NCBI RefSeq assembly: GCF_017357825.1
Contig: NZ_CP046072.1
Coordinates: forward strand, 2,666,001-2,730,000
Origin: Sulfurimonas aquatica
Lineage (GTDB): Bacteria; Campylobacterota; Campylobacteria; Campylobacterales; Sulfurimonadaceae
Length of the DNA: 64,000 nucleotides
Direction: 5' to 3'
In this document: positions 7,194 to 15,127 of the stretch, one piece after another
How positions within the stretch are numbered: position 1 is the first letter of the stretch
Layout of the letters: every line of letters begins with the position of its first letter
Notes under the pieces: model-generated
Databases searched by the model: none
What the model saw: only the letters and a program-made list of their open reading frames with translations
Told to the model about the DNA's origin: nothing
Position numbers and translations under genes: made by a program

Positions 7194-10100
7194 CTATTTT
7201 ACTTCTATCTCCATCTTTACTTTTACAATATTTTCTTCTGAATCATCCACTGTTACAACTTTAGACTTACTAATACGAGCAACAGAAATCGACTTCTCCT
7301 GTGTTAGATAGCTCACTATTGCCTCAGCTCTAGACTCTGCTAAAGCACTCATCTCCTCTATCGTTACAGGTTGGATTTCCCTGCATAGTTTAAGGAGTCG
7401 AGTATGATACTCGCGTTTAATCTCATCATCTTCATACTTATCTCTTAAGCTCTCTTTGAGTTCATCAAGCTTATCATCATCTTTAGACTCTTCATATATA
7501 TCTTCTAGAATTTCTATACTCTGAGCACTCACATTTTCATTTATATTTTTTATATCACTTTTTTGCATAACCAGCTTACTTAACTTCTCTTCTCTGAGAG
7601 CTCTCAAATCTGAACTTGCATCATATGCAGGAGTTACCTTTAGAGATATTTTTGGTCGTTTCATCATCATTGTATATATCTGATCGAGTTTTTCACGTTC
7701 TGTCGCTTCTATCATACTTTTTGATGCTTCAAATTCCAAGAACTCAAGAGAGTCAGCATCTATTCCCATAAGTGCACCTAAAAATTTAAAAGGTGCTGTA
7801 ACGGCTTTTGTAATGACTCCTACAACAGTTTTAAAAACTAGTTCTCCATACTTAAAGTCAGGCTCATCTACATTTCCTTCTACTGGCATATCTATATCGA
7901 TAACTCCATCATTATCCTCTAGTAAAGCAATTACAAAACCTAACGGAAGTACAGTTATATTTTCATCTTCGACCTCATCACCTAGCTCTATATTTTTGAT
8001 TATTATCTTATTACTCCCCTCTAAATCAGAGTTGAGCATTTTATAGCCAAGGTCAAGGTATAGTTTTCCGGAATCTATCTCATGTCCTGCAAAAGATGCA
8101 CTGTATCCGCTAAGAGAGTTAAGATCTAAGTTTTTAAAGTTAAAGTTAATATCTGTGTATGCCTTGGGGTCTGAAGCATCAAGACTACCCTCTAACTTTG
8201 TTGAACCATACCTGTCTACTTCCCCGCTTATATCCACATAGCTTGTCTCCCCTGGAGTGTTTGATATAGAGTAGATAACGCCATTTAAATCATGAATATG
8301 TGTATGGAATTTAATAGGTATGGAGTAGTCTGCAAACTCAGCACTTCCAAGTGATACATTTACTTTTGCTATCTTGATAGGAAAAGAGCTCTCTTTTGAA
8401 CTATTTGATTCATTCCTTACTTCGGGCTTATCTTCTTTCTCTATTTTTGTTGTTTTTGACAACTCGGAAAAGTTTATTACCTTATTCTTATCTATCTTAG
8501 CATTCAGATAGAAAGAGTCCACATCTATTTCATCCACATAGAGACGATTTGGAAACATTTCAAAAGTAAATGACTTTACATCTACATCATTTAAAGAGAG
8601 GAGTAGTGCATCTTTTTTAGTGTCATTTACAAATAGCGAGCTTAAATTTAGTGAGCTTTTAACTCTTAAATCTGCACTAGAAGATGATTTAGCATACTGT
8701 GTAGTTCCTTTTAGAGAAAGTTTTCCACTCTCAATTTCAAGGTATGTGCTCTCTTGAAGATACGGTGTTATGCTTTTAAGAGGTAGATTTTTAATTTGAA
8801 ACTTCCCTCTTTGTTTTAACGGAGTGTGTCTTAGTTTTCCATCTGCGTTTATATAACCCTTTTTGTTCACTCTCGCTAAAAGGTCATACTCCAGCCAACT
8901 CTTCTCTTTGATATCTATGTTATAAGCATTCAAGTTAATCTTATCTAGAGTGTTTTGTGCTTCTTTTTCTAAAGAGTAGTCTCTGAAATCTACCTTTGCT
9001 TGACTAAGTGTAAACTTCTTTAAATTTACCTCATAAGGAAGCTCTTGCTTAGTCTTTGCAGCTTTTATCTTTTTCACTTTTTCTTTTTTAGCCACAAGTA
9101 GGTTTTCTAAATTTAATCTGCCATTTTTAAATTTCTTCACATCTACTTCAAGATTTTTTAACTCCGTAGCGTCTATTAAGATTTTTCTACTCTGCATATC
9201 TAAATTTATCCCAGAGATTTTCAACTCTTTAAAGCTAACAAGTTTTTTAGCGCCACTGCGTTTACTTGCCTCAAATGCTTCAAGTGTAATATTTGTATCT
9301 TTTACTTTTGCAAATATTTCATTCTCTATATCAATAATATTTACTTTAGCATCCACTCCAAACAGACTCTTTTGTAATTTTAAATCATATAAGGCAAGAG
9401 ACTCTTTAGCAAGCTCATCAATATAAGGTCTATAATGAATAACATCGAACTCTTTGCAGCTTATGTTTGTATCTATATCTATCTGCTTATGTCTAATATC
9501 TCCATCCACACTACATCTCATTCTATCATTGAGTAATATATTCATCTGATAACTAAATGGTTTTTCTCCCAGCAGAGTAATATCTTGAGCAAAAATATTT
9601 AATTCGTTTATCTCACTTTTAACATTGGGTGATATTGCTCTGTCATCAAAACTTACTCTTATCTTTTCTAGTGCAACATCCTCAACCCTAACACTCCAGT
9701 TAGTTTGCTCTTTCTTTGTGCCATTTTTATCTGTTGAATTATTGTCGCCACCCTCTACTTGTATGTACCCTAGCCAGTCTATGCTTTTATTTTTATTGCG
9801 TTTACTCTTTATATCTAACTCTGCAATACCCATGTTTTTAATATGCAAACTCTTTTGAAATGGCAACAGCGTTGCATCCCTAAGATAGAATGATTTTAGA
9901 TTTAAAATATCTTGATCTTTATTTTTAGGCTTTATTCTTAACTTCTCAAGAGAAATATTAATCGCATCTATTTTTGTAGCATTTATCTCATCCAAATCAA
10001 AGTGATAATTTGAACTAAAGGAGATTTTTCCATCTGCCACTTCAAGATTGAGAATATCTTTAAAATATTTCCACTGTGTATAAAGTTTACTTGCCTCAAA

Positions 10101-10751
10101 GTCTAAGCTTCCCTCAACTACAAATGGTTCAAATCCAACTACCCGACTTTTAAAGTCTATAAAACCACCATCGCCTAGGTGTGAATAAAAACGGAGTTTT
10201 GCTTCACTCGTATTTACATCATCTGTATCCACATCCTTAAGCCTAAAACCTATATCATCAAAAGAGAACTCAAAAGGCTCTTTTTTGGTATAGTCCACAT
10301 ATTTAACACTACCCTCTACTATCTCCATAGCGTCAATAATAACTCTTGGCAGTTGAGACTCTTGAGGAACAGTCTCATCTTGGCTTTTTTTCTCTTTTAA
10401 AATTTTCAAAAGATTAATTGAGTTATCCCTCTCATGTACTAAGGAGATTTGAGGAGAAGTTAACGTTAAGTTTTTTAAATGGATAGCCGCTCTTAATAGT
10501 GAGTAAACCTCAACGTTTAAAAGAAGCGAATCAAACGTAACTAGGGAATTGTTCTCTAAATCTTTTAACGCCACACCACTAAGTTCAAGTTTAAAAATAA
10601 AAGGATTAAAGTAAACACTATCTATCTCTATCTTGGCGTTTAGTGCTTTATTTGTATTGCTAATTATTTGTGATTTTAAGATATATGGCAAGGCTACAAA
10701 GCCAAAGAGGGTATAAAAAAGAAGAGTATATAGAATTATTTTTTTGTACAT
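7194..10751 (-). CDS. very large AsmA-like / DUF748 protein
   Basis: About 1185 residues. An N-terminal membrane helix is followed by a long periplasmic region of repeating beta-strand segments of the AsmA/DUF748 kind, including the SLFGVDAKVNI-type and SGKLYLDLGYK strands. A short hydrophobic loop near residue 990 and a charged helical C-terminal part resembling an OmpA-like domain (RAEAIVSYL) complete it. Proteins of this superfamily span the periplasm and are implicated in phospholipid transport or outer-membrane assembly. The start is set at the ATG at 10751, which has GGAG seven bases upstream; a GTG 12 bases earlier overlaps that SD and is less likely. Confidence 0.8.
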   Translation of the reverse strand: MYKKIILYTLLFYTLFGFVALPYILKSQIISNTNKALNAKIEIDSVYFNPFIFKLELSGVALKDLENNSLVTFDSLLLNVEVYSLLRAAIHLKNLTLTSPQISLVHERDNSINLLKILKEKKSQDETVPQESQLPRVIIDAMEIVEGSVKYVDYTKKEPFEFSFDDIGFRLKDVDTDDVNTSEAKLRFYSHLGDGGFIDFKSRVVGFEPFVVEGSLDFEASKLYTQWKYFKDILNLEVADGKISFSSNYHFDLDEINATKIDAINISLEKLRIKPKNKDQDILNLKSFYLRDATLLPFQKSLHIKNMGIAELDIKSKRNKNKSIDWLGYIQVEGGDNNSTDKNGTKKEQTNWSVRVEDVALEKIRVSFDDRAISPNVKSEINELNIFAQDITLLGEKPFSYQMNILLNDRMRCSVDGDIRHKQIDIDTNISCKEFDVIHYRPYIDELAKESLALYDLKLQKSLFGVDAKVNIIDIENEIFAKVKDTNITLEAFEASKRSGAKKLVSFKELKISGINLDMQSRKILIDATELKNLEVDVKKFKNGRLNLENLLVAKKEKVKKIKAAKTKQELPYEVNLKKFTLSQAKVDFRDYSLEKEAQNTLDKINLNAYNIDIKEKSWLEYDLLARVNKKGYINADGKLRHTPLKQRGKFQIKNLPLKSITPYLQESTYLEIESGKLSLKGTTQYAKSSSSADLRVKSSLNLSSLFVNDTKKDALLLSLNDVDVKSFTFEMFPNRLYVDEIDVDSFYLNAKIDKNKVINFSELSKTTKIEKEDKPEVRNESNSSKESSFPIKIAKVNVSLGSAEFADYSIPIKFHTHIHDLNGVIYSISNTPGETSYVDISGEVDRYGSTKLEGSLDASDPKAYTDINFNFKNLDLNSLSGYSASFAGHEIDSGKLYLDLGYKMLNSDLEGSNKIIIKNIELGDEVEDENITVLPLGFVIALLEDNDGVIDIDMPVEGNVDEPDFKYGELVFKTVVGVITKAVTAPFKFLGALMGIDADSLEFLEFEASKSMIEATEREKLDQIYTMMMKRPKISLKVTPAYDASSDLRALREEKLSKLVMQKSDIKNINENVSAQSIEILEDIYEESKDDDKLDELKESLRDKYEDDEIKREYHTRLLKLCREIQPVTIEEMSALAESRAEAIVSYLTQEKSISVARISKSKVVTVDDSEENIVKVKMEIEVK

Positions 10752-10807
10752 GATAAACTCCACACAATATATAGTGTGAGTTTATCTCATTTGGTGTTAA
10801 AGAGGCT

Positions 10808-12253
10808 TTATTTTGACTCTAGTAGAATGCTTTTTTTAGGAAAAACAAATGTTGAATCTCTAAATACAGAGATTCTCTCGCTCTTTTTCCCATCTTTATC
10901 TAATGCATAAGCATGAATAGTAATAGGGATAATAGTGTTTTTTCTATCATCATCAACCAGTACTTCCGTTGTTCTAAGTGTAACTATTTTCTTCTTTTTA
11001 CTTCCAGGTACAACAGTAAATGCTTTAGTTGGCTTAGCTATAGTTATCTTTCCTTCCATACCTTTTGGAGGAATGATGTCGAAGAAAAACTTCATCTTCT
11101 CGTTTTCAGTGTTTTGAAGTAAGAAAATGTATGAGTTATCTACTCTTACTCTTCCATCAGGAAGACGTTTATCTGAAAAGAGTCTATTCTCTTTATTGAT
11201 ATTTAAAAGCATATGCTCTTTTGTACTTCCCATAAATCCCAGTGCAACCGTAATCCCGACAAGAAGAACGATATAAGCAATAATCTTAGGACGGAAATAC
11301 TGTGTTTTACCTTTTTGATCTATTATCTCATACTCACTAGACCATGTTACAAGCGATGGCTTACCAAGTTTACCCATAACGGTTGTACAAGCATCTACAC
11401 ACTCCAAACAGTTGATACACTCTAGCTGAAGACCTTTACGGATATCTATATGAGTTGGACAAACAGTAACACATGACTCACACGTAGTACACTCAGCCGC
11501 TGGCTCAAAAGCTTGTAAATCTTTTTGTTTTGTAAAGTTTTTATTATGCTCTTCATCGTAGATATCTCCACCTCTATTTGTATTGTAGAGTGCCATTACA
11601 GTATGGTCGTCATATAAAACAGACTGTATACGAGAGTATGGACAAACATAAGCACAAAAATCCTCTTGTAAAAAAACGATATCATAGACTAAAAAGAGAG
11701 CAACACCGACCCAAATACCAATAAGTGCCCAGTGGTTACTATAATCCATCGCATAAGGTATAAAATCTTCCGGTGGAACAAAAAACCATAAAAAGTCTGC
11801 TGCGGCTAAATGAGCAAGAACAATAGCCATAACAAGTGCTATGGCCTTTTTAATCTTGTTCTCCATTTTAGTCATATCAGGCTCAATCTGTTTGTTTTTT
11901 ATACGTTTACGTAGACCAAGAATTTTTGTCTCTATCAGATCACGATAAGAAGCACGAAATACTGTCTGAGGACAAACCCAACCACAAAACACGCGACCGC
12001 CCAACACAGTCATACCAAAAACACCTAGAAAAACTAGCATCAAGATAAATGGCATAAGATACAACTCTTGCATATCAAACTGAATAAACGCAAGGTGTAG
12101 TTTAAGTTTATCAAAACTTAAAAGAAAGAAGTGATTCCCATCTATTTGAATCCATGGCAAAGCCAATGTAAACAGTGTTGCAAACATAAACACTACATAG
12201 CGTTTATATCTCCATGGCATTGGTATTTTAAAATCCGTTGTTTTTGTACTCAT
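10808..12253 (-). CDS. ccoG: cytochrome c oxidase accessory protein CcoG
   Basis: A 481-residue membrane iron-sulfur protein needed for copper delivery to and assembly of cbb3-type oxidase. Five or six membrane helices are visible. VFCGWVCPQTVF and FCAYVCPYSRIQ carry the CxxxCP motifs, and a ferredoxin-like stretch around residues 255-290 has two CxxCxxC..CP-type clusters for [4Fe-4S] centres. The C-terminal periplasmic part (about residues 345-470) is the Ig-like FixG domain. It lies 16 bases downstream of the resolvase-like gene and is presumably transcribed with it. No cbb3 subunit genes are in the window. Confidence 0.96.
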   Translation of the reverse strand: MSTKTTDFKIPMPWRYKRYVVFMFATLFTLALPWIQIDGNHFFLLSFDKLKLHLAFIQFDMQELYLMPFILMLVFLGVFGMTVLGGRVFCGWVCPQTVFRASYRDLIETKILGLRKRIKNKQIEPDMTKMENKIKKAIALVMAIVLAHLAAADFLWFFVPPEDFIPYAMDYSNHWALIGIWVGVALFLVYDIVFLQEDFCAYVCPYSRIQSVLYDDHTVMALYNTNRGGDIYDEEHNKNFTKQKDLQAFEPAAECTTCESCVTVCPTHIDIRKGLQLECINCLECVDACTTVMGKLGKPSLVTWSSEYEIIDQKGKTQYFRPKIIAYIVLLVGITVALGFMGSTKEHMLLNINKENRLFSDKRLPDGRVRVDNSYIFLLQNTENEKMKFFFDIIPPKGMEGKITIAKPTKAFTVVPGSKKKKIVTLRTTEVLVDDDRKNTIIPITIHAYALDKDGKKSERISVFRDSTFVFPKKSILLESK

Positions 12254-12269
12254 TTTACTTCTCCTAATG

Positions 12270-12905
12270 TTAGTCTGGACAAGTAATCGTATTAATTACT
12301 TGATTCTCAGCATCTTCAACTGGTTGTGGTAGTAGTGAACCAAACGCCACTTGCTTTAACTCGCGTGACTCAATAAAGTCTTTGAGGGAGCTTCTGCTCA
12401 CACCTAAGAGTCGTGCCATCTCACTGACACTTTTTTTCTCCTTAATAAAGGAGAGTATTTCATTAACATATTTATCAAACTTAGAGTTTGATTTACTTCC
12501 CTTAGGTCTACCAATAACTTTTTTAGCATCATCTTGTATGGTCTGTCTAAGCTGATCTATTAATCCACAAATTAACATAGGATTACTCTCTCTACTCATC
12601 ACAACTGATTGCTTTATGAAGTGAACTTGAAAGTTATTTTTCATTAAACAGCTAAACATCTGCACTAAGTCTTCCATATTAGTACTCAGAACCCATGTGT
12701 CATATATTAAAAGCGTTGCATTCTCTTTTGGTTGTAAAAAAGACGTTACATTTTGGCGTTGAGATAAGCGTTTGTTTTGAGAGAGGTGGTCTATAAGCTC
12801 TTCATCAATAGACATATCGTGAGAAATTGCATAAGAGTTTATATGTTGGAGTTGTTCATGAACAGAGTCAAAATTTTTATCTGGACGTATGTATGTTATT
12901 ATCAT
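12270..12905 (-). CDS. resolvase-like DNA-binding protein, probably a regulator
   Basis: 211 residues. The N-terminal 120 resemble the serine recombinase (resolvase/invertase) fold (MIITYIRPDKNF), but where active enzymes have Y-x-R-V-S-T the sequence has Y-I-R-P-D-K, so the catalytic serine is absent. A linker GRPKGSKSNSKFDKYV (about residues 138-153) leads to a helix-turn-helix (VSEMARLLGVSRSSLKDFI, about 159-177), like Hin-type C-terminal domains. I infer a DNA-binding regulator rather than an active recombinase. It is first in an operon with ccoG, and its promoter sits in a perfect palindrome. Confidence 0.75.
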   Translation of the reverse strand: MIITYIRPDKNFDSVHEQLQHINSYAISHDMSIDEELIDHLSQNKRLSQRQNVTSFLQPKENATLLIYDTWVLSTNMEDLVQMFSCLMKNNFQVHFIKQSVVMSRESNPMLICGLIDQLRQTIQDDAKKVIGRPKGSKSNSKFDKYVNEILSFIKEKKSVSEMARLLGVSRSSLKDFIESRELKQVAFGSLLPQPVEDAENQVINTITCPD

Positions 12906-12945
12906 TTTAACGATTAAACCTCACTATTAGTTAAATTTCACCGTC

Positions 12946-12988
12946 ATTATAGCAACTATTGACGATGAAAGTCAATAGTTGCTATAAT
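12946..12988. promoter_or_regulatory. palindromic promoter/operator of the resolvase-like gene and ccoG
   Basis: A perfect 18-bp inverted repeat (ATTATAGCAACTATTGAC and its complement) with a 7-base centre GATGAAA. On the minus strand each arm supplies one promoter element: TTGACT as -35 and TGCTATAAT, an extended -10, with an 18-bp spacer. The predicted start is about 35 bases before the ATG at 12905. The plus strand holds an equivalent TTGACG-18-TATAAT. A dimeric protein bound here would block the promoter. A hairpin terminator for the upstream gene is the other reading, but no T-run follows. Confidence 0.7.
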
Positions 12989-13001
12989 TATTTCGTCATA
13001 A

Positions 13002-14177
13002 TTACCAGCCGATACCTAATTTAGCCATATATCTTCTATCAGGATTACTAGCTGTTCCTGTCCCTACTTCCTCTTGGTATGTAGCAACATTTAATTTAAA
13101 AAGTAAGAATTCTAAGTCTATACCTGCTGTATATGCACCTTGATAGATACCACCACTTAATGCTAAAGATAAGTACGTACTATCTAAAACACCTAGATTA
13201 GCACCTAGTCTTAGTCTCTTTTTCATATCTGACTCATCTAAATCTGCATCAACATTTCCATTAATATCATAAAATCTTACTTTATTAGCATTTAGCATAT
13301 CAACATAATCAACTGCTAAAGTGAAACTCTCTAGCACAGGAACTTCAGGCGAGATAGACATACCAATATTAAGTGTCATTGGCTGCCTACCATAATTATC
13401 ATCCATACCCATTGAACCGATATTTAAGATACTAATTCCAACTGCTGGATGTAAAGAGCTTTCTGCAAATGGAAAGAGTGTCGCACCAATATCTCCACCA
13501 AAGCCTGTGCTCTCTTTTTTATACTTATCTTCTAACCTAGTCGCGATATCATCACTTGCTAAGAGATCATTAATAGTTAATCCTCCCTCAAAAGAGATCT
13601 GTTTAATAAACTTAAGCCCAACACCAACATCTAAGCGACCAATATCAGTCGAGTATGATTTTGCAGCGCCCAGTAAAACACCACCGTATGTTCTACTGCT
13701 CGTTTCTAAAAATGAAGATCCACCATTTGCATGAACCTTATAGTTAATATCTGCAGCTGCCAATAAACCTACAGACCAAGCAAATAAATCAGAATTTTTT
13801 GAGATTGCACTATAGTTATCTACACCCATATGAAAATGCTCACCCGAGTATTTTTTCAAAACATCTATCATGTCGTTGGTAGCATTAGGATTAGAAGAGC
13901 TTGTATCTACATCGCCCATATCTTTGATAAACTCCGTTGTTTTTTCACTAACAGAAACACCAAGACCTAAGAGATCAAAAACAAATCCATGCTCTTTTTT
14001 AATACTTGCAAGACCTGCGGGATTAGAAAAAACAGAAGTAGAGTATCCCCCTACTGCAACATTTGCTCCACCCATACCCATAATGCGAGGATCTTTATAA
14101 AGATATGCATGTTCTCCATCAAGTGCCATTAGTGATGTTGTTGCACAGATTAGTGCTAAAGATATTATTTTTTTCAT
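13002..14177 (-). CDS. outer-membrane beta-barrel protein, TraF/PorV-like
   Basis: 391 residues with a signal peptide (MKKIISLALICATTSLMA) and then YLYKDPRIMGMGGANVAVGG and FSNPAGLASI, the N-terminal signature shared by TraF_2, PorV and FadL-like barrels. The rest alternates amphipathic strands and ends in an aromatic-flanked strand (YMAKLGIGW), as outer-membrane proteins do. Its ATG overlaps the stop of the upstream lipoprotein gene by 4 bases, so the two form a unit. The cargo or role is unknown; conjugation is not implied, as no transfer genes are present. Confidence 0.75.
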   Translation of the reverse strand: MKKIISLALICATTSLMALDGEHAYLYKDPRIMGMGGANVAVGGYSTSVFSNPAGLASIKKEHGFVFDLLGLGVSVSEKTTEFIKDMGDVDTSSSNPNATNDMIDVLKKYSGEHFHMGVDNYSAISKNSDLFAWSVGLLAAADINYKVHANGGSSFLETSSRTYGGVLLGAAKSYSTDIGRLDVGVGLKFIKQISFEGGLTINDLLASDDIATRLEDKYKKESTGFGGDIGATLFPFAESSLHPAVGISILNIGSMGMDDNYGRQPMTLNIGMSISPEVPVLESFTLAVDYVDMLNANKVRFYDINGNVDADLDESDMKKRLRLGANLGVLDSTYLSLALSGGIYQGAYTAGIDLEFLLFKLNVATYQEEVGTGTASNPDRRYMAKLGIGW

Positions 14178-15127
14178 TTGATCTCTCCTGCTAAGTAATT
14201 TGCTATTGCTTCAGCTGTAATATTTCCATCAGAAGCAATCTCTTTTCTAAACTCTTCTATATCTTTTTTCATATCTTCGGGAGCAATCGTAGCTAAAGTA
14301 TCAAAAGAGTTGTTTAAAGTATCAACAAGAGCTTTAGATATTGTCGTCACATTTCCATCTATTAAAATTGGTGCAGTATTACTATCTTTATAATCTGTCA
14401 AAAGCATCTCTTTTTTAGCGGGGTCGGCAAACTTCAATCTATAGTAAATTGCAGTACTAGCAATATCTGAAATAGAAATTTTTCTATAATCACCATCTAT
14501 TCCTCCATCTGTAATAGAAAATCTAGTACAATAAGTTGGTAATCCGCTAGTTGAATATACATATGAAATAGCACATGCCGAAGCTAATATATTTGGGTCA
14601 TCCGTTGTAGTGTCCCCTAGTTTTTGCACATCACCAAGATAACTTAGCACTACCGTGGCCTTAGTCATATAAGCTAAACTTAAAAAGAGATCTCTATCTC
14701 CCGTAGTAGTTGAGGGATTTGCAGAAGCTTTATATGCAGGAGCAGCAGTAACCGAAGTTCCAGTTATTGCTTCATAGTAACTTATTGCCTTTTGTAGATT
14801 AGCTAAAGTCTCAGGATTTTTTTTCTTCTCAATCTCTTTTGCATAATTTGCAAAACTTTTATTATCATTTGTGCTGTTTGCATTAGAAACTAATGCAACT
14901 GTATCTGTAAAACTAAGACCAGCCTTTCCCATATATGCAGAAGCTAGTAGCATATAATCTTCAGTAGTCTTAACCGATTTACTTTCTAAGTTTGAGATTG
15001 TAGTTGAAAAATCTCCTTTATCCAGAGCTTGTTGTGCACTTAGTCTATCTTCAGCATTATTTTCACCACAACCACTAAAAAGCAGAGCTGATGCGACAAG
15101 TGAACTTGCAACTATTTTCTTTATCAT
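14174..15127 (-). CDS. outer-membrane-type lipoprotein
   Basis: 317 residues with a lipoprotein signal peptide and lipobox LFSGC (C20). The mature part is helical and begins with a TPR-like pair (AQQALDKGDFSTTISNLES, then YMLLASAYMGKAG), followed by a serine/threonine-rich region and no clear catalytic motif. It precedes and overlaps the barrel gene by 4 bases. I infer a periplasm-facing partner of that barrel; I do not recognise a family. Confidence 0.65.
   Translation of the reverse strand: MIKKIVASSLVASALLFSGCGENNAEDRLSAQQALDKGDFSTTISNLESKSVKTTEDYMLLASAYMGKAGLSFTDTVALVSNANSTNDNKSFANYAKEIEKKKNPETLANLQKAISYYEAITGTSVTAAPAYKASANPSTTTGDRDLFLSLAYMTKATVVLSYLGDVQKLGDTTTDDPNILASACAISYVYSTSGLPTYCTRFSITDGGIDGDYRKISISDIASTAIYYRLKFADPAKKEMLLTDYKDSNTAPILIDGNVTTISKALVDTLNNSFDTLATIAPEDMKKDIEEFRKEIASDGNITAEAIANYLAGEIK

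Follow-up and report, generated by a model that had tools for sequence, protein, structure and literature searches.

A serine recombinase-like protein without catalytic residues, probably a transcription regulator, is encoded upstream of ccoG in Sulfurimonas aquatica and other Campylobacterales

The gene upstream of ccoG

The window, i.e., the 64-kb stretch of S. aquatica DNA analyzed here, contains directly upstream of ccoG a gene for a serine recombinase-like protein, further called reg. The two genes are presumed to belong to the same operon, of which a DUF748 protein gene is a possible third member:

12270..12905, minus strand: reg, putative regulator gene (dead serine-recombinase fold plus GRPKG/HTH DNA-binding domain), 211 aa, with conserved Cys86 and Cys209
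10808..12253, minus strand: ccoG, cytochrome cbb3 oxidase assembly factor (TIGR02745, 439 bits, cutoff 316.7), directly 3' of reg
7194..10763, minus strand: DUF748 protein gene, 44 bp after ccoG

A DUF748 gene also follows ccoG in three relatives (L031, L032, and L035). Preceding reg on the same strand, positions 13002-15127 encode a TraF_2-like protein (PF13729, at its cutoff) and a putative lipoprotein, a pair found between metH and reg in some relatives only.

A first-pass annotation of this DNA had assigned a recombinase fold and an HTH to the gene before ccoG. Both are borne out, the former by the Pfam Resolvase N domain profile (PF00239; E 1.7e-5, 25.4 bits, above the cutoff of 23.3), which supports descent from serine recombinases, the latter by the GRPKG motif and HTH at the C-terminal end. 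The resolvase HTH_7 model gives 15.2 bits, under its cutoff of 23.8, and all of the several HTH models that match do so below cutoff. The NCBIfam profile of the master DNA invertase Mpi (NF009949) scores 49 bits, far below its cutoff of 272, and at E 0.001 it matched 58/58 members. With the single reg sequence as query, a PDB search returned a designed repeat protein and weak matches. The S. aquatica genome holds one reg match, and the protein of another Sulfurimonas sp. (L031) is 70% identical to it.

Loss of catalytic residues

We found YIRPDK in reg at the place where recombinases carry YxRVS. In a profile alignment Asp9 of reg falls on Ser9 of Sin (structure 2r0q), the nucleophile, and the serine of four plasmid recombinases shares this column. 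The alignment of 67 orthologues (50 rows from the family, of which L001 is S. aquatica, plus 17 of more distant origin; the set contains two identical pairs) has Ser at this position in none, with a serine one residue earlier in three rows and one residue later in three others. The claim of the first-pass annotation that the catalytic serine is missing thus withstood an alignment to Sin that could have placed a serine there. For the active-site arginines R8, R45, R68, and R71 and for helix E we adopt the numbering and name of the recombinase literature. Arg is absent from both the R68 and the R71 columns in all 67 orthologues (Val and Thr in S. aquatica, as aligned with the plasmid recombinases), while the equivalents of R8 and R45 are retained in 63/67 and 66/67, respectively. 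The presumed helix E of the regulators lacks 10-12 residues, including the AEIER segment, and a few more are absent before GRPKG; in an alignment with six recombinase-like proteins, two of which (L142 and L143) show partial degeneration of their own, 12 gap columns mark this stretch in all six regulators compared. Hence, neither the nucleophilic serine, nor the full arginine set, nor a full-length helix E is present in reg. The best-kept parts of the regulators are the near-invariant DNA-binding end (GRPxG, SxSKFD, and SRSSLKDYIESR) and two cysteines.

Cys86 is kept in 67/67 orthologues and Cys209 in 66/67, the exception being L140. Both lie outside the DNA-binding motif, as would fit a thiol sensor, and reg perhaps acts, judging by these residues, as a thiol-based switch. 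Cys209 sits in a C-terminal tail peculiar to the regulators; since Cys also occupies the Cys86 column in two of the four plasmid recombinases (L262 and L263), this tail cysteine alone distinguishes the regulators. L142 and L143, recombinase-like proteins from another family of the same order, have neither cysteine. Both also lack R68, and L143 lacks the serine, so they possibly represent a second case of lost catalysis.

Promoter and operator array

The region between reg and the gene preceding it carries the following elements:

12946..12975, minus strand: reg promoter, TTGACT (12975-12970), 18 bp, TATAAT (12951-12946), TG before the -10; letters conserved
12960..12998, minus strand: operator 1 (boxes A and B), 39-bp inverted repeat TGACGAAATAA-N17-TTTCATCGTCA, spanning the -35
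12908..12946, minus strand: operator 2 (boxes C and D), 39-bp inverted repeat TGACGGTGAAA-N17-TTTAATCGTTA, from the last -10 base to 2 bases before the ATG
12946..12988, no strand: 18-bp palindrome, perfect arms 12946-12963 and 12971-12988, 7-base centre
12959-12988, plus strand: mirror promoter made by the palindrome

We determined that four boxes, arranged as A> <B C> <D, are conserved in the form TGACGAaAtAA, TTTaaTCGTCA, TGACGATGAAA, and TTTaATCGTTA, with A and D less strict. Pairs A/B and C/D form 39-bp inverted repeats of the type TGACG-N4-AA-N17-TT-N4-CGTCA, whose starts are 52 bp apart. The array covers the -35, the -10 and the start region, TTGACT running into box B and TATAAT abutting box C, and it is kept in register across 48 promoters. 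Thus, a conserved candidate operator lies in the regulator's own promoter, as autoregulation would have it. In the S. aquatica genome the pattern TGACG-N4-AA-N(14-20)-TT-N4-CGTYA occurs at operators 1 and 2 only. At up to 3 mismatches, the 39-bp pattern matches the window five times, against 0.12 for shuffled sequence, with four of these matches at the two operators, and the genome contains five more places, each with 3 mismatches (reversed-pattern control: 1 and 1), one of which is in metH. A second copy of the reg-type C-D operator was seen at a contig end in one relative (G030:C110:71-109), which may reflect duplication of the promoter or an error of assembly.

An RNA switch formed by boxes C and D was considered and rejected: the start predicted by the -10 would leave most of box C untranscribed, and folding of the 35-nt leader is no stronger than that of its shuffles. 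This assumes that transcription starts where the -10 puts it; a longer stretch of 91 nt does pair C with D.

As for the palindrome, its description in the first-pass annotation as a perfect 18-bp inverted repeat with a 7-base centre, each arm holding an extended -10 for one strand, is accurate. Both strands read TTGAC[T/G]-18-TATAAT with TG before the -10, matching 11/12 consensus bases, and the 91-nt minus-strand region that holds the palindrome and operator 2 folds with z = -8.1, a value reached by 0/200 shuffles, so the palindrome is not due to chance. The same annotation took the repeat for the regulator's binding site and proposed to look for it upstream of orthologues. Among 49 reg promoters, it reaches 18 bp in S. 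aquatica only, and a different repeat is the conserved one. Arms around the same centre are perfect over only 4 to 7 bp in 44 of the 48 other promoters, and the core is absent from four. This conserved core, TTGAC-N7-GTCAA, includes box B and was enlarged by 13 extra paired bases in S. aquatica; a one-step hairpin-templated mutation may have done so. The palindrome lies across the conserved operator and is not the operator itself, a role for which it was rejected.

Distribution and descent

In its own family, reg has matches in 148/228 genomes at E 1e-3, 140 of which are strong. In a phylum sample of 397 genomes, 138 match at E 1e-10; below 1e-30 there are 98, comprising 34 from the own family and 64 from eight other families of Campylobacterales, and the scores then leave a gap down to 3e-19. 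The gene adjoins ccoG in 50/50 family loci fetched (L002-L051; L031 repeats L018, and L016 is close to L015) and in 17/17 loci fetched from among the 64 distant orthologues (L125-L141; the ccoG match of L135 is only 33% identical). In 11/17 of the distant loci, an SQR-like gene comes after ccoG. In one of them, ccoG and the SQR-like gene flank a homologue (L131:1377-1553; 39% identity) of a 63-aa membrane protein, an arrangement that joins two of the putative targets described below in one operon.

In a tree, 45/45 regulators fall on one side of a branch (98/94) that separates them from L142, L143, and four plasmid recombinases, with a warning from the program about long branches. Plasmid records matching reg number 73; the 15 listed show about 25-28% identity, and the four that were fetched keep Ser, R68, and R71. 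No match to the reg protein was found in the phage records searched, on which ground spread of reg by phages was rejected.

Sites at other genes in relatives

Sites of the reg type are not confined to its own promoter in relatives. A list for genomes G001-G039, allowing 14-20 bp spacing and including own-promoter sites, holds 85 sites, 71 of them with exactly 17 bp between the arms (hand count). We fetched 82 sites beyond the own promoter in 80 loci; 80 have the 17-bp spacing, partly by selection, as most listed places with other spacings were left out. A few come from incomplete genomes where the regulator gave a weak match or none (G001, G025, G028, and G166). A gene start lies within 250 bp of 75/82 sites, and four sites are inside a reading frame. 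The neighbors are as follows:

63-aa membrane protein heading an M48 peptidase-prmC-DUF4149 operon: 40 sites, the commonest
divergent small membrane protein: 18 sites
SQR-like flavoprotein (PF07992; 71 bits to the SQR model, cutoff 525): 15 sites
ketopantoate reductase: 6 sites
cytochrome c: 6 sites
msrA: 5 sites
SLAC1: 3 sites (DUF302 behind SLAC1 in L063)
dinitrogenase-cofactor-like proteins: 2 sites, plus similar ones in L084 (Pfam) and L088 (by eye)
TusA-like protein (Pfam E 0.007, sub-cutoff), DUF6858, and rhodanese: single sites
rubredoxin: 245 bp from a site

Rhodanese-like proteins are also close to sites in L071, L091, and L256 (by eye). The M48 peptidase-prmC-DUF4149 operon is itself conserved (L061:3209-5970 and homologues); the 63-aa protein at its head has no Pfam match. 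Relative to possible -10 elements, judged by eye, the placement of sites is mixed: they lie over the -35 for reg and SQR-like genes and about 70 bp upstream of the likely start in several M48 promoters, where reg may act either as a repressor or as an activator. In S. aquatica, the M48 site (L094:1142-1180) has an intact left arm and a decayed right one (score 10.1), and intact sites are found only at reg's own promoter.

The first-pass annotation had also proposed control of cbb3 oxidase assembly and a search for the repeat before ccoNOQP. The link of reg to the cbb3 oxidase is through ccoG only. The conserved operator is absent upstream of ccoN in 18 regulator-bearing genomes (17 stretches of 830 bases and one of 237 ending at a contig end), with a best score of 0.4 vs. 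27.5 to 34.8 at real sites; the structural genes ccoNOQP were therefore rejected as targets.

Genomes without the regulator

In the 228 genomes, regulator and pattern occur together in 133, the regulator only in seven, the pattern only in 12 and neither in 76, a table inflated by the sites at the regulator's own promoter. Of the 12 pattern-only genomes, eight are <90% complete and five are without an exact 17-bp match. Pattern matches total 567 in regulator genomes (61 for the reversed pattern) vs. 28 in regulator-less ones (33 reversed).

A cleaner test is offered by the M48 promoters, with the reservation that related species are not independent. Among 34 nearly complete regulator-less genomes, ccoG and M48 are each present in 33, and 30 loci of each were examined. 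No operator was found at the M48 promoters (0/30; best score -1.2), while 20/22 M48 loci compared score 27.5 to 34.8 with a score trained on positive-set sites, two of these 20 (L067 of G025 and L085 of G166) being from incomplete genomes where the regulator is not secure. The remaining two are S. aquatica (10.1) and L060, whose site lies outside the scored stretch. Hence, operators at unlinked genes are absent where the regulator is absent. The ccoG promoters of these genomes likewise have no operator (0/30; none above -5.7). In 19/30 of the regulator-less loci metH is upstream of ccoG, as it is beside reg in many relatives.

We found a different box in the ccoG promoters of regulator-less genomes. 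Palindromes like TTATAATNATTATAA precede ccoG in the set L145-L174 (e.g., L148, L150, L155, L159, and L161); 17/30 promoters have one at up to 1 mismatch (0.3 expected by shuffling) and 25/30 at up to 2 (2.9 expected), vs. 1/49 reg promoters (0.92 expected) and 0/30 M48 promoters at the latter threshold, all counts being from related species that are not independent. The PerR box consensus is given as TTATAATnATTATAA in PMC11631912. Such a PerR-type box, distinct from the operator of reg, stands before ccoG in the regulator-less relatives, and our guess would be that PerR binds it. An open-access literature search on PerR with ccoG in Campylobacter found nothing. A search for the exact box in 12 genomes (eight without and four with the regulator) gave 15 loci, read by eye: five at ccoG, three at 180-230 bp upstream of a flavoprotein gene (G092, G217, and G128; L213, L215, and L219; PF07992 for one of the three), one before DUF6858 in a regulator-bearing genome, three by a chemotaxis-like or radical-SAM-like gene and three by no clear gene. 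In another species (L076), DUF6858 is preceded by reg's own operator, so overlapping gene sets may be served by one regulator in some lineages and by another in others.

Discussion

In these genomes the catalytic residues of reg are lost, its operators are conserved, sites stand before the same genes in relatives, and regulator and operator are absent together. We put at roughly three in four the probability that reg is a domesticated dead recombinase, which would act as an autoregulated, perhaps thiol-modulated transcription factor binding 39-bp repeats, with a small regulon in relatives. From the sequence evidence we infer binding of the operators by reg, repression and a signal. Against this reading count the seven regulator genomes without a pattern match and the 12 regulator-less genomes with one, as well as the lack of a second intact site in S. 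aquatica, the occurrence of Cys86 in plasmid recombinases and the long spacing between the arms. The autoregulation suggested in the first-pass annotation survives in part: a dead recombinase beside ccoG very likely works on inverted repeats of its own promoter; the palindrome as its binding site has to be given up.

In recombinases, the HTH lies at the outer ends of the site and the GRPKG-type part inward. With a DNA-binding end of this type and probably a dimerising N domain, reg would bind the 39-bp repeats as dimers, with 17 bp separating the inward-facing TGACGA-type arms, the HTH contacting the outer TGACG ends and GRPKG the AT-rich inner part. The two sites in its own promoter are 52 bp, or about five helical turns, apart, so two dimers might touch on one DNA face. 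Together the sites extend over the -35 and the regions of transcription start and ribosome binding; hence reg most likely represses itself and ccoG, while at some other promoters the position of the site would suit activation as well. In relatives, reg would also control the M48-peptidase operon, the SQR-like flavoprotein and sulfur and redox genes, and a thiol reaction at the two cysteines outside the HTH may alter binding. The content of this regulon and the two cysteines appear to favor sulfur or redox sensing over oxygen; the signal, at a guess, would be sulfane sulfur, an oxidant, or a metal. CcoG has been described as a cupric reductase that serves cbb3 biogenesis, and Campylobacter jejuni lacking it had its oxidase activity lowered by about half (PMC8267372). 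Speculatively, sulfide or oxidants could disturb the CcoG step so that more CcoG is needed.

Several other readings were weighed. That an unrelated regulator binds the 39-bp repeats, with the dead recombinase a downstream passenger or in another role, would agree with S. aquatica having intact sites at reg's own promoter only. We consider it unlikely, given that nearly complete reg-less genomes lack the operator even at the unlinked M48 operon (0/30) and that the DNA-binding end is the most conserved part of reg. The original proposal, with the 18-bp palindrome as binding site of the dead recombinase and an oxygen-responsive control of cbb3-oxidase assembly, is right about the gene, the repeat, and the adjacency to ccoG; it is very improbable as a whole, with the palindrome in one of 49 promoters, another repeat conserved and 18/18 ccoN stretches without operator.

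We also give little credence to the palindrome as a device, either a bidirectional promoter or a terminator of the upstream gene. Speaking for it are promoters close to consensus on either strand, a plus-strand call that resembles a terminator, and a strong hairpin; yet it is a feature of one species among the 49 promoters, the strand of the upstream gene has no terminator call, the plus-strand promoter faces the tail of a convergent gene, and a one-step templated enlargement of the TTGAC-N7-GTCAA core would be explanation enough. Virtually no weight is left for a still working site-specific recombinase with the repeats as res-like sites. The fold family fits, and two tandem 39-bp sites resemble res subsites, but Ser, R68, and R71 are lost in 67/67 orthologues, the helix-E stretch is shortened, and relatives have single sites upstream of various genes. 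The operators were accordingly rejected as recombination sites on the ground of the lost residues.

The domesticated-recombinase reading has partial parallels among known systems. With resolvases and invertases such as Mpi (NF009949), Sin (2r0q), and gamma-delta resolvase (1gdt), reg shares the N-terminal fold, mostly R8 and R45, GRPKG with an HTH, and inverted-repeat sites; unlike them, it is without Ser, R68, and R71, has a helix E shorter by 10-12 residues and a Cys-bearing tail, and its promoter sites have 17 bp between the arms, a spacing longer than is usual for resolvase sites. Gamma-delta/Tn3 resolvase represses its own promoter at res as a by-product of an active recombinase. Like reg, it is a recombinase-fold protein placed over its own promoter via paired inverted repeats; in reg, by contrast, catalysis is gone and unlinked genes of relatives carry sites. 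SqrR and CstR are thiol-based sulfide/persulfide repressors of a group with ArsR/CsoR folds. BigR is likewise a thiol-based sulfide/persulfide repressor (PMC5823870). These proteins resemble reg in their two conserved cysteines and similar targets (SQR-like, rhodanese, and TusA-like) and differ from its recombinase fold, in which the thiol chemistry is putative.

Searches of an open-access library showed, by title and abstract, no serine recombinase that has lost catalysis and become a dedicated regulator with its own regulon, and a search there on ccoG, Sulfurimonas, and recombinase found nothing. The accessible part of one review (PMC8987985) covers invertase exchange and Xre-type factors and has no dead-recombinase regulator. 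That of a review on how respiration is regulated in Campylobacterota (PMC6682613) contains none of the words resolvase, recombinase, and CcoG, and it describes knowledge of regulation in free-living members as little.

A fuller account would have the family, which spans nine families of Campylobacterales, arise once from a DNA invertase, lose catalysis and gain a Cys tail for a two-cysteine thiol switch that senses sulfane sulfur or oxidants and sets ccoG and a sulfide/redox regulon, the lineages without it using a Fur-family-like box at ccoG and a flavoprotein gene. We regard it as tentative, with the odds somewhat against it in this complete form.

To judge from sequence comparison, in sulfur-oxidising Campylobacterota a dead recombinase probably now serves as a gene switch before a respiratory assembly gene and, in relatives, before sulfur and redox genes. 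If this is right, these bacteria would gain an operator and a testable regulon, and genes labelled recombinase by family profiles may turn out to be regulators.
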